Shown one piece after another: positions 23,905 to 27,214 of a stretch of DNA of 58,139 bases. Every line of letters starts with the position of its first letter. Positions within the stretch are counted from its first letter, which is position 1. Below the pieces are notes generated by a model. That model ran no database searches. It saw only the letters and a program-made list of their open reading frames with translations, and was not told the DNA's origin. This stretch comes from Anaerolineae bacterium. GTDB lineage: Bacteria; Chloroflexota; Anaerolineae; Aggregatilineales; J027. Location of the stretch: contig JAJTXY010000024.1 in the NCBI GenBank assembly GCA_021463865.1, positions 1-58,139 of the forward strand, read 5' to 3'. The position numbers and the translations under genes are program-made.

Positions 23905-24455
23905 ACCCCGCCGCGCGTGAGTTCCCACTGTTTACCATCAATGGCTTCAAAATCAGCGCCACCCCTTCGGCCATTGTCGGATCGCTGGTTTTATGGGTCT
24001 TGCTCACGATGGTCGCCCTTGTCTTTACGGATTTGTCGCTCATTGCGGCTGTAGTCGCTGGTTTTCTCACCATGCTGCTGCATTGGGCCTTTGAAATCAT
24101 CCATCAAATGGGTCATGCGTCTGCCGCTAGAAAAACGGGCTACCCTATGTTAGGTGTGCGGCTCTATTTAGTGCTAGGGGCATCGCTCTACCCCTCCGAT
24201 GAACCCAATTTGCCTGCCCAAATACACATCCGACGGGCATTGGGTGGCGCGAAAATCAGTCTAGCAGTCTTAGCTATATCCACTTTTATCTTACTTCTCG
24301 TCTGGTCGGCGGCAGGAGACTTTGTGCGGATGTTGGCGCTATTCGCCTTTTTAGATAACCTACTGGTTTTCACCATCGGCGCAGTGGTTCCATTCCCATT
24401 TCCCAACCTGATTGAAAACGATGGAGTCACACTCATGCGCTGGCGGGGTAAATAG
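23901..24455 (+). CDS. Site-2-protease-like (M50-fold) membrane protein lacking the catalytic Glu
   Basis: The 184-aa protein starts with GTG overlapping the phosphatase stop. It has four hydrophobic helices (about 22-45, 46-67, 118-140, 145-165). Helix 2 runs into FEIIHQMGHASAARKTGY (residues 65-82). That matches the M50 motif HExGHxxxA except that Gln69 stands where the catalytic Glu should be. The second M50 motif (normally N/PxxPLDGG) appears only as PFPFPNLIENDG. Metal binding may persist, but proteolysis by the usual mechanism is unlikely. It may be a pseudoprotease that holds or presents membrane substrates, perhaps to the nearby rhomboid. That role is inference. Confidence 0.7.
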   Translation: MNPAAREFPLFTINGFKISATPSAIVGSLVLWVLLTMVALVFTDLSLIAAVVAGFLTMLLHWAFEIIHQMGHASAARKTGYPMLGVRLYLVLGASLYPSDEPNLPAQIHIRRALGGAKISLAVLAISTFILLLVWSAAGDFVRMLALFAFLDNLLVFTIGAVVPFPFPNLIENDGVTLMRWRGK

Positions 24456-24462
24456 AGCTTTT

Positions 24463-24487
24463 CCCCTCCCTAATGCTTTAGGAGGGG
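24463..24487. repeat. G/C-rich hairpin between convergent genes
   Basis: CCCCTCC (24463-24469) and GGAGGGG (24481-24487) form a 7-bp stem with an 11-nt loop between the genes ending at 24455 (+) and 24501 (-). It could be a shared terminator or a member of the palindrome group noted at 4878 and 9454. Confidence 0.5.
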
Positions 24488-24500
24488 CAGGGATAGTTTA

Positions 24501-26711
24501 TCAGGGTTGTGCCACCGTCAAGGCCAATAGGCGGCGGAATACGGGCGAATCCAGCGGTGCCCAAATCTCCGGCAGATTCCAGCGCATGGCATCGGCTCGT
24601 TCACGCAGCATTGTAGCAAGGGCCTCTATTGCCAATACGCGCAAAGTTTCTGTTTGGGTGGGATCAGCTTTGGCTTGTTCCCAATCTTGCATCGTGCGGG
24701 CCGCTGCAAATTCCATCCGCTGCCACGCATGGAGATAATCCAATAGCGGTTCGACCACTTCCAGCACCTGTTCCAATTCTGGCCCCAACAGACTGCCACT
24801 GCATATCAGCGAATCAGCCAGACGGCGCAGCACTACCTCAAAACTGTGCATCACCTCAATCGAGAGCAAGATTTCCAAATTAGCATTCCAACCCGCCCGC
24901 GTCACACGGTCAATCACTTGACGGGCAGCACCAAGATAGGCCCAAACGCGGGTCGCAATCATACCACTGTAGGGAGGGGGGTCATCTTTTTGATACACCA
25001 ATTTGGTTTGGGCGGCTGCCAGCCATTGCGAATAGGGGCGGCTCCGCAGCAGGATCAGCAATTGCTGGGCCGATTCGTTGGCATGGGCTTTGTAGCCCTC
25101 GCAAATCGCCGTCAACTGGGCAATCGCCTCCGGGTCGTCGTGATCGGGGTCAGTTTCATCCAACAGACTGGTACTTCGATCAAACAGGGCCGCCCTGTGG
25201 AGGGCACTCTTAATCGCTTCAGCCAACGCATGACTCGTGGCATCATCAATTCGACTAGGTTTCGTACCGGGAATAAGCCATTCCCATACCCCGATCAAGC
25301 GTTGATACTCTGCCCACATGGGGGTTAACATGCCTGCTTCACCATTACGAAACCGACCCGCGACATATTCAAAGCGCCGAGCATAATGCACTCGCAGAGC
25401 GTTGCTCACTTCTACTGCCGAAGCCAACGCCTCCAAATTGGGCCATAGTTCCGGTGCATCCGAGGTTTTTAAGACACCTTGTTCGGCACTAATAAATCGG
25501 ATTTGCGCCTCTTTAAACAGCCGATTCCACAGATCACTTTTTTGTTCGGCTCGCACCATATCTACGGCTGCTTCCCGACCACTGACCTCCAAAATAAGCG
25601 TACCGGGAGTAGAGCGCCAATGTTGAATCGTGCTGGTTTGGGTATGGCTGAAATCAAGACCAATTCCCATTCGCAGTAAGGCGGCTAATGTCTCGGCATG
25701 GCCTAAGATATGCTTGGGCAATTTAACCGACGCCGGGAACTGATGCACACGCGGTAAGGTGCGATGCAACCCTGTCATTACAGCAATAAGCTGGCGTTCT
25801 TCGCTGCTTATATCTTTTAACTCATATTGCAGAATCAAATCCCGTCCGCTGAGATGATGTTCGATGGGGTCGCTGGCAAACGTGATGTTATGCAGTAGAG
25901 CCGCCGCGTGCAGCAAATCTCGATAATGCTGGGGGAGGCGGTGAATGCTGGCCGTGATGTCAAACAATTCTCGACTAAGGTTGCTGATATGCCGTGCATG
26001 GGCCATGTCCACATTATAGGCTGCTGCCAATGCGCTGACACTAATGGGTTCAGCCGTGCTAGGTGGATGAACAGTCGGTGGTTCAGCGACTGGCGGATGC
26101 CTAGGTTCGATATGGGCGACCACCATACGCGGAGTTGGGGCAATTTCGACTCCCACATCTTCGGCATCTCCGGTCAATAGGAATTCTAAACCCTCGGCAA
26201 CCGCTTCATCTATGGAAATAAGAGGGGATTCCGGGGGCGCTACCTCACGTGGACGACGAGCAGTGCTTCGACGATCAGGACGTCCTCCTTGCTGTTTGGG
26301 GGGACGACGGGAGGAACTTTCTTCGTCTTCAGGCGGGCGTTGAGTACGCGGGCTACGTGGTCGCGGTTGGCGGAGATTCACCCGACGGCGCTGACCCGAC
26401 TCTGGTTCATCCCCTAGAGCTTCGTTGACAGGCGCTTCAGACATTTCCTCAACCGGAGGCTGCGGTATTTTTGCCGCTGGTGATACGGGTTGTAGAGCCG
26501 ATCCAAATAAATCCAAGCCTTCAGTTTCAAAGCGCTCGGCCCACTGCTGTACTTCTTTGCGGGGACGGCGGACAGATCGGGCGATTTTTTCTACATCCTG
26601 TCCAGACGTCAGAGCTAATACAATTCGCGCTGGAACACTGTACTCATGTTCATCTTGTTCAGCGAGCCGAACAAGGGCTTTGCGGGTTTCACGATCCAAT
26701 GAATGGTTCAT
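24501..26711 (-). CDS. HTH / HD (Ppx-GppA type) / CHAD-like protein, probably polyphosphate-related
   Basis: The 736-aa protein combines three parts. Residues 1-62 are a homeodomain-like helix-turn-helix (VEKIARSVRRPRKEVQQWAERF). Residues about 65-165 are a disordered Pro/Arg/Glu linker. Residues about 225-345 resemble the C-terminal HD domain of exopolyphosphatases (AHARHISNLSRELFD, LLHAAALLHNI, then HHLSGRDLILQYEL), but the metal-binding HD pair is His-Asn. From about 425 to the end the helical sequence (VVLRRLADSLICSG; AMRWNLPEIWAPLDSPVFRRLL) suggests a CHAD domain, a polyphosphate-binding fold. No Ppx ASKHA domain is present. The CHAD call is moderate. It may be a polyphosphate-sensing regulator. 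Confidence 0.72.
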   Translation of the reverse strand: MNHSLDRETRKALVRLAEQDEHEYSVPARIVLALTSGQDVEKIARSVRRPRKEVQQWAERFETEGLDLFGSALQPVSPAAKIPQPPVEEMSEAPVNEALGDEPESGQRRRVNLRQPRPRSPRTQRPPEDEESSSRRPPKQQGGRPDRRSTARRPREVAPPESPLISIDEAVAEGLEFLLTGDAEDVGVEIAPTPRMVVAHIEPRHPPVAEPPTVHPPSTAEPISVSALAAAYNVDMAHARHISNLSRELFDITASIHRLPQHYRDLLHAAALLHNITFASDPIEHHLSGRDLILQYELKDISSEERQLIAVMTGLHRTLPRVHQFPASVKLPKHILGHAETLAALLRMGIGLDFSHTQTSTIQHWRSTPGTLILEVSGREAAVDMVRAEQKSDLWNRLFKEAQIRFISAEQGVLKTSDAPELWPNLEALASAVEVSNALRVHYARRFEYVAGRFRNGEAGMLTPMWAEYQRLIGVWEWLIPGTKPSRIDDATSHALAEAIKSALHRAALFDRSTSLLDETDPDHDDPEAIAQLTAICEGYKAHANESAQQLLILLRSRPYSQWLAAAQTKLVYQKDDPPPYSGMIATRVWAYLGAARQVIDRVTRAGWNANLEILLSIEVMHSFEVVLRRLADSLICSGSLLGPELEQVLEVVEPLLDYLHAWQRMEFAAARTMQDWEQAKADPTQTETLRVLAIEALATMLRERADAMRWNLPEIWAPLDSPVFRRLLALTVAQP

Positions 26712-26806
26712 TTTGATAACGAATCCAAGAAAAAAGTAATTGCCCTCTTAGTGTATCGCAACGATATACTTCATCACAACATTCACCTATAAGGAAATAT
26801 CCGTCT

Positions 26807-27214
26807 ATGCCTATCAAGATAAATCACCTCGCCATTGTTGTCCCCAATTTAGAAAGCGCCCTCGCCTTTTGGCATGACGCGATCGGCCTCGAATTGGGAG
26901 GTCGGGAAGAAAATCCCGGCGAAAACGTGAATATTGGCTTTCTACAGATTGGCGACAGCCGCATTGAACTCCTTGAACCCACCAATAATGACAGCGGTAT
27001 TGGGCGCTATTTGGAAAAGCGTGGGCCGGGAATGCACCATCTGTGTATCGAAGTGGAAAATCTGGAAGCGTCAATGGAGCAACTTCGACAAAAAGGAATT
27101 GAGTTGATTAATGACACACCTAAGATACGTCATGAAGATGGCATCCGCTATTGTTTTATCCATCCCAAAAGCGCTTTCGGCGTGATGGTCGAGCTATATG
27201 AACTCCCACATTAA
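26807..27214 (+). CDS. mce: Methylmalonyl-CoA epimerase
   Basis: The 135-aa VOC enzyme interconverts (2S)- and (2R)-methylmalonyl-CoA in propionate and branched-chain catabolism. It starts INHLAIVVPNLESALAFWHDAIGL, with metal-ligand His5. IELLEPTNNDSGIGRYLEKRGPGMHHLCIEV (about 47-78) contains the family's diagnostic IELLEP and GMHHL, and IHPKSAFGVMVELYEL closes the protein with the C-terminal Glu ligand. The mutase and propionyl-CoA carboxylase genes are not in the window. The branched-chain amino-acid importer at 42-47 kb would supply precursors. AAGGAAATATCCGTCT precedes ATG 26807. Confidence 0.93.
   Translation: MPIKINHLAIVVPNLESALAFWHDAIGLELGGREENPGENVNIGFLQIGDSRIELLEPTNNDSGIGRYLEKRGPGMHHLCIEVENLEASMEQLRQKGIELINDTPKIRHEDGIRYCFIHPKSAFGVMVELYELPH

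Follow-up and report, generated by a model that had tools for sequence, protein, structure and literature searches.

The minus-strand gene at positions 24501 to 26711 of the window (the whole stretch of DNA analyzed, 58,139 nucleotides of an Anaerolineae bacterium contig) encodes a 736-aa protein in which a helix-turn-helix (HTH) head is joined to the HD fold of Ppx/GppA domain III and to a CHAD fold that has lost its known polyphosphate (polyP)-binding residues. Judged from its sequence, the protein is probably non-enzymatic and DNA-binding, built on a polyP module without its known polyP site. An earlier note on this DNA had described the same arrangement of domains and read it as a polyP sensor. 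The observation itself was confirmed and the interpretation is partly supported; a repurposed DNA-binding protein appears more likely than a polyP sensor. The features of the gene and its upstream region are as follows.

24501..26711, minus strand: whole ORF, 736 aa, with HTH, disordered linker, Ppx/GppA domain III HD fold and CHAD fold (ORF call, dN/dS)
26496..26711, minus strand: residues 1-72, helix-turn-helix of the HTH_29/HTH_23/HTH_28 type (Pfam profiles, predicted model)
26052..26495, minus strand: residues 73-220, disordered linker (pLDDT, dN/dS)
26232..26399, minus strand: residues 105-160, Arg/Pro-rich basic stretch, net charge +11, 16 Arg, 11 Pro (sequence composition)
25482..26051, minus strand: residues 221-410, Ppx/GppA domain III HD fold (PF21447; 8jgr, Z 21.1 over 163 residues)
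25887..25892, minus strand: His274-Asn275 replacing the HD pair, motif LLH274-N275 (alignment)
25662..25664, minus strand: Ile350 replacing the last HD-superfamily Asp, RMGIGLD here and RVADGLD in relatives (alignment)
24504..25481, minus strand: residues 411-736, CHAD fold with decayed polyP-binding surface (clade profile, structure comparison)
25299..25325, minus strand: residues 463-471, TPMWAEYQR, aligned with the CHAD motif HDMRVATRR (CtCHAD His253, Arg256, Arg260; alignment)
24813..24848, minus strand: residues 622-633, HSFEVVLRRLAD, aligned with HxLRIxxKRLRY (CtCHAD Arg418, Tyr419; alignment)
26712..26771, minus strand: strongly conserved 60 nt preceding the start codon (57/60 identical to L058)
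26751..26769, unstranded: imperfect inverted repeat GTATATCG-TTG-CGATACAC, possible operator (7/8 arm pairs)

Integrity of the gene and selection

The AlphaFold2 model of the 736-aa protein had a mean pLDDT of 76.6, with values mostly above 80 in its three folded parts. A homologous ORF of 726-736 aa without internal stops was present across the five genomes of the genus searched. Four of these match named MAG records, and the named relatives are the Chloroflexi bacterium MAGs CFX10 (99%), CFX5 (94%) and NC_groundwater_1614 (78%) and the Anaerolineae bacterium MAG_03 (95%). The neighbours of the gene were largely the same in the records compared. Between the window and G232, dN/dS was 0.035 for the HTH, 0.195 for the linker, 0.050 for the HD domain and 0.051 for CHAD. 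The comparison with L058 gave 0.103, 0.233, 0.035 and 0.060, respectively, values that are less sure since dS exceeded 1, and the N-terminal half of CHAD yielded no dN/dS value there. The folded domains span 0.03-0.10, and the linker has the highest values of the protein (0.20-0.23). The difference between 0.035-0.051 in the folded domains and 0.195 in the linker in the comparison with G232 argues that the gene is not dying. On this pattern of substitution, the gene is in use and its decayed domains are under purifying selection. A pseudogene, a frameshift chimera or an assembly artefact is refuted by the stop-free ORF of 726-736 aa in five genus genomes, the shared neighbours and the low dN/dS, which leave it practically no probability.

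The C-terminal CHAD fold

The earlier note had called the C-terminal end CHAD-like. In the 736-aa protein the Pfam model for CHAD (PF05235) gave no match even at E-values up to 10, and a Pfam CHAD search of the window's own genome was likewise without a match. Therefore, fold comparison and a clade profile, for which 26 canonical CHAD regions from within the class were taken, were used instead. The profile scored 33.2 bits on residues 411-736, compared to 6.9 for the best of 1000 shuffles and -1.4 for the reversed sequence. The best score of an ORF lacking CHAD, HD and HTH among 4469 ORFs of the sampled loci was 10.0, a figure that excludes one ORF with 13.5 bits, which is a C-terminal piece of the G322 homologue itself. 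A Foldseek search with the whole model returned the CHAD entries of C. tepidum (CtCHAD), 6qva and 6qv7, as top PDB matches (both E 3.6e-7), and VIA-align superimposed 297 residues on 6qva, the polyP complex, with Z 24.6 and an rmsd of 3.1 (Ricinus CHAD, Z 24.9).

Since the alignment behind this first model held canonical CHAD rows, a second model was made as a control from 19 rows comprising only the window protein and its decayed relatives, with no canonical CHAD rows. It matched 6qva with Z 24.2 over 297 residues; its top 30 were CHAD, PPX and other HD-fold or HD-like entries, and everything below had Z ≤ 7.3. The second model rules out that the CHAD fold of the first was a product of the canonical rows only. 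The clade profile together with the fold matches from two models identifies the fold of the C-terminal region as CHAD, and the earlier term CHAD-like holds for the fold and no further. Profile similarity was found for both domains, with PF21447 for HD and with the clade profile for CHAD; a match to Pfam CHAD was not. Within the decayed set, six of the 19 members matched Pfam CHAD at E-values up to 1.

Loss of the known polyP-binding residues

According to the available text of Lorenzo-Orts et al. (2019; PMC6537752), mutation of His253, Arg256 and Arg260 in CtCHAD weakened polyP binding 6-8-fold, additional mutation of Arg296 and Arg418/Tyr419 weakened it about 80-150-fold, and binding by a quadruple mutant of SsCHAD was not detectable. 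We mapped the CtCHAD numbering onto the family motifs HDMRVATRR, VRDLDV and KRLRY by alignment (offset 204). At H253, R256, R260, R296, R418 and Y419 the window protein has T463, W466, Q470, L504, A632 and D633, so that none of the six is kept. Two different MAFFT alignments agree on the six positions, that of R296 being the least certain (Arg506 lies two residues further on).

The positions were read in 54 rows, i.e. 53 HD-bearing proteins and one C-terminal fragment, with duplicates by the last 150 residues dropped and Lys counted as kept for Arg; row L088 is the cut second copy of L038. All six positions were kept in 24 rows, five in 2, four in 4 (one of them cut short), three in 2, one in 10 and none in 12. 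In f1, f3 and f5, three families of the window's order, the 20 HTH-HD-CHAD rows kept 0-1 of the six positions; among these, L141, L142 and L150 are incomplete and L157 is partly masked. The fourth family of the order, f6, kept 6/6 in 4/4 rows. The one equally decayed row from beyond the order was L038 of G224 (with its copy L088).

The CHAD region of the window protein is acidic (net charge -11, pI 5.2). Decayed CHAD regions had a median net charge of -5 and a pI of 5.67 (19 rows), compared to 0 and 7.26 for those keeping 5-6 positions (26 rows), with overlapping ranges of net charge (-18 to 2 and -14 to 9). The replacement of all six mutation-tested positions and the acidity of the domain weaken the claim that the protein binds polyP. 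Binding could still occur through other residues, above all those of the Arg-rich linker.

The HD domain

As the earlier note had proposed, residues 221-410 form an HD domain of the Ppx/GppA type with a His-Asn pair: PF21447 (Ppx-GppA_III) matched residues 224-367 with E 4.8e-13 and 49.7 bits at a cut-off of 27.3, and the pair is H274-N275. The catalytic ASKHA part is missing, again as described. PF02541 (Ppx-GppA catalytic) was absent from the five Pfam families matched at E-values up to 10, compared to 200 bits for the canonical PPX of the genome, and residues 1-220 consist of HTH and disordered linker, with no ASKHA domains I and II. The His-Asp pair and a downstream Asp are what we take to be the metal ligands of HD-superfamily hydrolases. 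With H274-N275 and I350 the window protein does not hold this set; His285/286, Arg290 and His316 are kept.

For the phylogeny we used a quick tree of 105 HD domains from which the column of the second residue of the motif was left out, and in which many inner forks are weakly supported. All CHAD-fused HD domains fell into one group of 56 rows (52 CHAD-fused, three stand-alone and one cut HTH-HD piece) with an SH-aLRT of 100; the other side of the split held 49 PPX-fused, metallophosphatase-fused and stand-alone rows. HN was the commonest state of CHAD-fused domains (29/52, five of them close rows of the window's genus) and occurred in 1/36 PPX-fused, 1/14 stand-alone and 0/2 metallophosphatase-fused rows. 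The HD pair was found in 5/52, 35/36, 13/14 and 2/2 of these rows, respectively, and the remaining 18 CHAD-fused rows had neither. On the tree, 11 changes between HN and not-HN are needed. Within f1 the pair is HN in the window's genus, HR in G322 (L141) and HG in G321 (L196), and none of the three retains the last Asp.

HN being unique to the window protein was rejected, as it is present in 29 of the 52 CHAD-fused HD domains of the class. The change from HD to HN is therefore shared by relatives and no private loss. Of what the earlier note had set as evidence against its reading, orthologues with an intact HD and phosphatase activity, one half is present, as five of the 52 rows carry the intact pair. 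Also rejected was the idea that HN marks the loss of PPX catalysis: two solved PPX enzymes with alignments inspected (D. radiodurans and A. baumannii) have His-Glu at this place, so a His-Asp pair is not what makes PPX an enzyme, and HN is the commonest state in CHAD-fused rows. From the earlier argument that HN makes hydrolysis improbable, the absence of the usual metal residues stands, and the premise of a normal His-Asp pair does not hold for these two enzymes.

Two side observations concern other HD domains. The sole HN among the 36 PPX-fused domains is in L086 (539-2083), and in L037 (1355-2740) and L046 (3041-4342) a calcineurin-like metallophosphatase and a Ppx domain III HD share one chain, a combination that to our knowledge is new.

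The HTH head and the linker

The predicted model of the HTH contains four helices (residues 7-18, 25-35, 40-47 and 51-73). PF13551 (HTH_29) matched residues 28-67 with E 6.7e-5 and 23.3 bits when the whole protein was scanned, which is below the cut-off, and with 28.2 bits, above the cut-off of 28.1, when residues 1-73 were scanned alone. HTH_23 matched 21/21 HTH segments of the family scanned. These matches bear out the DNA-binding type of N-terminus in the earlier description. The best PDB sequence-profile matches were 8vd6 ('CAP REPEAT') and 2lvs; the matches also include DNA-binding domains, all of them weak, with the PAI domain of Sleeping Beauty at E 0.021, TnsB at E 0.022 and sigma factors at E 0.0025-0.007. 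The net charge of residues 1-72 is -1.

The linker was predicted with pLDDT below 50 at residues 77-172 and 176-213 and contains 18 Arg and 28 Pro in 148 aa. The disorder and the Arg/Pro richness noted earlier hold true, and a basic character is confined to residues 105-160 (+11), as the linker as a whole has a net charge of -4 and is not net basic. Its most basic 50 residues have a net charge of +12 in both the window protein and L058. This Arg-rich stretch is kept in L058, a 78-80% relative, weak in G322 (L141) and absent from the other rows compared.

A different basic element is present in f5, where the motif [KR][KR]GR[KR] was found within the decayed CHAD region of all 11 proteins read (L004, L143-L147, L149, L151-L153 and L157); it was absent from the f1, f3 and f6 rows of the same comparison. 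This motif resembles what we take to be the core of an AT-hook.

The upstream region

The 57/60 identity to L058 upstream of the start codon far exceeds that at the third positions of the first 72 codons (36/72 identical), and the 60 nt may represent a conserved promoter or leader. The inverted repeat within them was not significant alone, as 296/1000 promoter shuffles reached the same arm score or better. At ≤ 2 mismatches it occurs at six places in the genome, compared to one for the control pattern read backwards. A palindromic operator with a regulon was rejected, since three of the five other genome places lie inside ORFs and 296/1000 shuffles were as good; the genome-wide pattern search found no regulon. 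In a scan of positions 24350-26950, four promoter-like sites (2.1 ± 1.5 in shuffles), none of them in the upstream region, and one terminator-like site (2.7 in shuffles) were detected.

Distribution and genome context

Among 102 CHAD-bearing proteins, we found the architectures HTH-HD-CHAD (27), HTH-CHAD (25), CHAD alone (21), CYTH-HTH-HD-CHAD (12), HD-CHAD (8), CYTH-HD-CHAD (4), CYTH-HTH-CHAD (2), HTH-HD with CHAD below threshold (2) and CYTH-CHAD (1), in a sample, L088 included, that over-represents relatives of the window protein and the best CHAD matches. By these domain matches, the relatives of the window protein form a [CYTH]-HTH-[HD]-CHAD family. In the accessible text of the open-licence PubMed Central literature on CHAD, no description of HTH-CHAD or HTH-HD-CHAD proteins was found. 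The family may be undescribed, absence from that literature being no proof of novelty.

The window protein was matched in 89/298 sampled genomes of the class, mostly over its HD domain, and in 42/154 genomes of the order. Pfam CHAD was found in 127/154 genomes of the order, the window's genome not being among them, and in only one of the five genomes of its genus (G320, an HTH-CHAD protein of 411 aa). In the other four, the window-type gene is the only CHAD-fold gene found, which could mean that the decayed protein still does the job of a CHAD protein. All 11 f5 genomes with a decayed protein also have a second, Pfam-detected CHAD gene (E 1.7e-47 or better), and in the three that were read (G262, G418 and G421) it has kept the full motifs; such a second gene would be anticipated had the decayed copy acquired a new role. 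In the phylum sample, a canonical HTH-CHAD query matched 163/301 genomes, among the matches listed nearly always with the CHAD part only, so that the HTH fusion looks commoner within the class than elsewhere in the phylum. A plasmid search returned three records, all of them Deinococcus PPX.

The window's genome encodes PPK1 and a single canonical PPX, in which the HD pair is intact; polyP is therefore probably present. Among the 11 neighbour genes compared (19.8-32.5 kb of the window), no polyP genes were seen, as judged from translations, by which we presumptively named these genes. In 36 CHAD-bearing regions (3-20 kb; single-sequence seeds), drawn from 40 retrieved, another polyP-type gene accompanied the CHAD protein in four: PPK1 and a metallophosphatase (L123), PPX (L126), CYTH (L101) and a metallophosphatase-HD gene (L134). 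In L123 (5190-10742), PPK1, metallophosphatase and a CYTH-HTH-HD-CHAD gene lie together. In L101 (158-2251), a separate CYTH gene directly precedes the HTH-CHAD gene, which mirrors the CYTH-HTH-CHAD fusion found in other genomes. Seven class loci picked for PPX (L062, L069, L077, L080, L083, L090 and L091) also contain a separate CHAD ORF, so that PPX and CHAD genes are often neighbours there.

A single origin of the decayed CHAD of f1, f3 and f5 together was not rejected (p-AU 0.668) on a quick tree of 56 HD domains, from which three long rows and the majority of the PPX, metallophosphatase-fused and stand-alone rows had been omitted. One origin is thus compatible with these sequences and not proven.

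Possible role of the protein

In the reading that we prefer, and to which we give about an even chance, the window protein would be a DNA-binding regulator or nucleoid-associated scaffold descended from polyP-handling proteins. Among the relatives in the class, proteins with an HTH and a canonical CHAD in one chain still exist, frequently accompanied by a Ppx domain III HD and CYTH, and the change would have run from such proteins to the window lineage, which would have kept the HTH and retained an HD domain without metal residues and the four-helix bundles of CHAD without the known polyP-binding residues. The HTH would dock on DNA, and the pseudo-HD and pseudo-CHAD domains might act as modules for dimerization, protein binding or a new ligand.

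A polyP-responsive regulator, or a tether between polyP granules and DNA, would contact polyP via the Arg-rich linker or a remodelled CHAD and DNA via the HTH. It is conceivable, though we consider it rather improbable. Relatives with the same HTH and a canonical CHAD (6/6 positions) are common, PPK1 and PPX are present in the genome, and the Arg-rich linker reaches +12 in the window protein and L058; moreover, the available text of PMC9239181 describes a proposal for AlgP of P. aeruginosa in which a disordered basic tail links polyP granules with the nucleoid. This is opposed by the replaced contact positions in an acidic domain and by the f3 and f5 relatives, which show the same residue losses and have no Arg-rich linker. 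HTH folds also serve protein contacts, and the protein might be a structural scaffold that does not bind DNA, its HTH contacting proteins while HD and CHAD assemble a complex. The net charge of -1 in residues 1-72 and the lack of a regulon in our search agree with such a scaffold; however, the PDB profile matches of the HTH, all weak, include DNA-binding domains and f5 has, in addition to its HTH, a basic loop that is conserved, and we regard the scaffold as distinctly unlikely. An active phosphohydrolase of the HD superfamily is more unlikely by far. Despite the retained His285/286, Arg290 and His316 and the relatives with HD pairs (5/52), whose activity is putative, the window protein has HN for the pair and Ile350 for the last Asp, and the variation of the pair between HN, HR and HG within f1 looks like that of a site under no catalytic constraint.

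The repurposed DNA-binding protein can be placed in a wider scheme, which is tentative and which we think doubtful. Anaerolineae HTH-CHAD proteins would be one-chain links between polyP and the chromosome, and in the window's order CHAD would have become a polyP-independent chromatin module, its surface decaying as basic parts arose. The new basic parts would be the AT-hook-like motif of f5 (11/11) and the Arg-rich linker of the window's genus, which could attract nucleic acid. If this were true, the family would form a natural gradation of regulators, with polyP-bound ones at one end and polyP-free ones at the other.

According to the available text of PMC6537752, what CHAD proteins do physiologically has yet to be established, and that of PMC9239181 calls the manner in which polyP granules associate with the nucleoid unclear so far. 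With HTH and canonical CHAD fused in a single polypeptide, a direct link between polyP and DNA becomes accessible to experiment, and the decayed members, including the window protein, provide naturally occurring counterparts for comparison that lack the known polyP site. They also call for caution, as the fold alone is no ground for annotating such proteins as polyP-binding.

Comparison with known systems

With the granule-to-nucleoid linkers AlgP and PhaF, the window protein would share the principle of one chain meeting DNA and a storage polymer via a basic disordered part (available text of PMC9239181); in contrast to them it has a folded HTH and a CHAD fold, and the likeness is one of idea, with no sequence relation claimed. 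From the HTH of the IS630/homeodomain-like type (HTH_29, HTH_23), whose profile matches residues 28-67, it differs by the fusion to HD and CHAD, and no transposase domain was found. Like domain III of Ppx/GppA exopolyphosphatases (D. radiodurans 8jgo-8jgt), it has an HD-like domain (Z about 21, 30-31% identity). Unlike these enzymes, it lacks the ASKHA catalytic domains and has HN where two solved enzymes have HE and 35/36 PPX-fused rows have HD, and its HD domain falls into the CHAD-linked group that the quick tree sets apart with an SH-aLRT of 100. E. coli ygiF (CYTH-CHAD type, 5a60) also bears CHAD at the C-terminus, and relatives of the window protein have an N-terminal CYTH (12 CYTH-HTH-HD-CHAD), whereas the window protein itself is without CYTH and begins with an HTH. 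With the CHAD proteins or phosins (CtCHAD 6qva, R. communis 6qv5 and S. chartreusis PptA 6rn5), the fold is shared over the whole domain (Z 24-25 to CtCHAD and RcCHAD, Z 17 to PptA). The His of the second motif is kept as H622 (Gln in L058), but the window protein is acidic, is missed by the Pfam CHAD model and has all six CtCHAD polyP-contact positions replaced.
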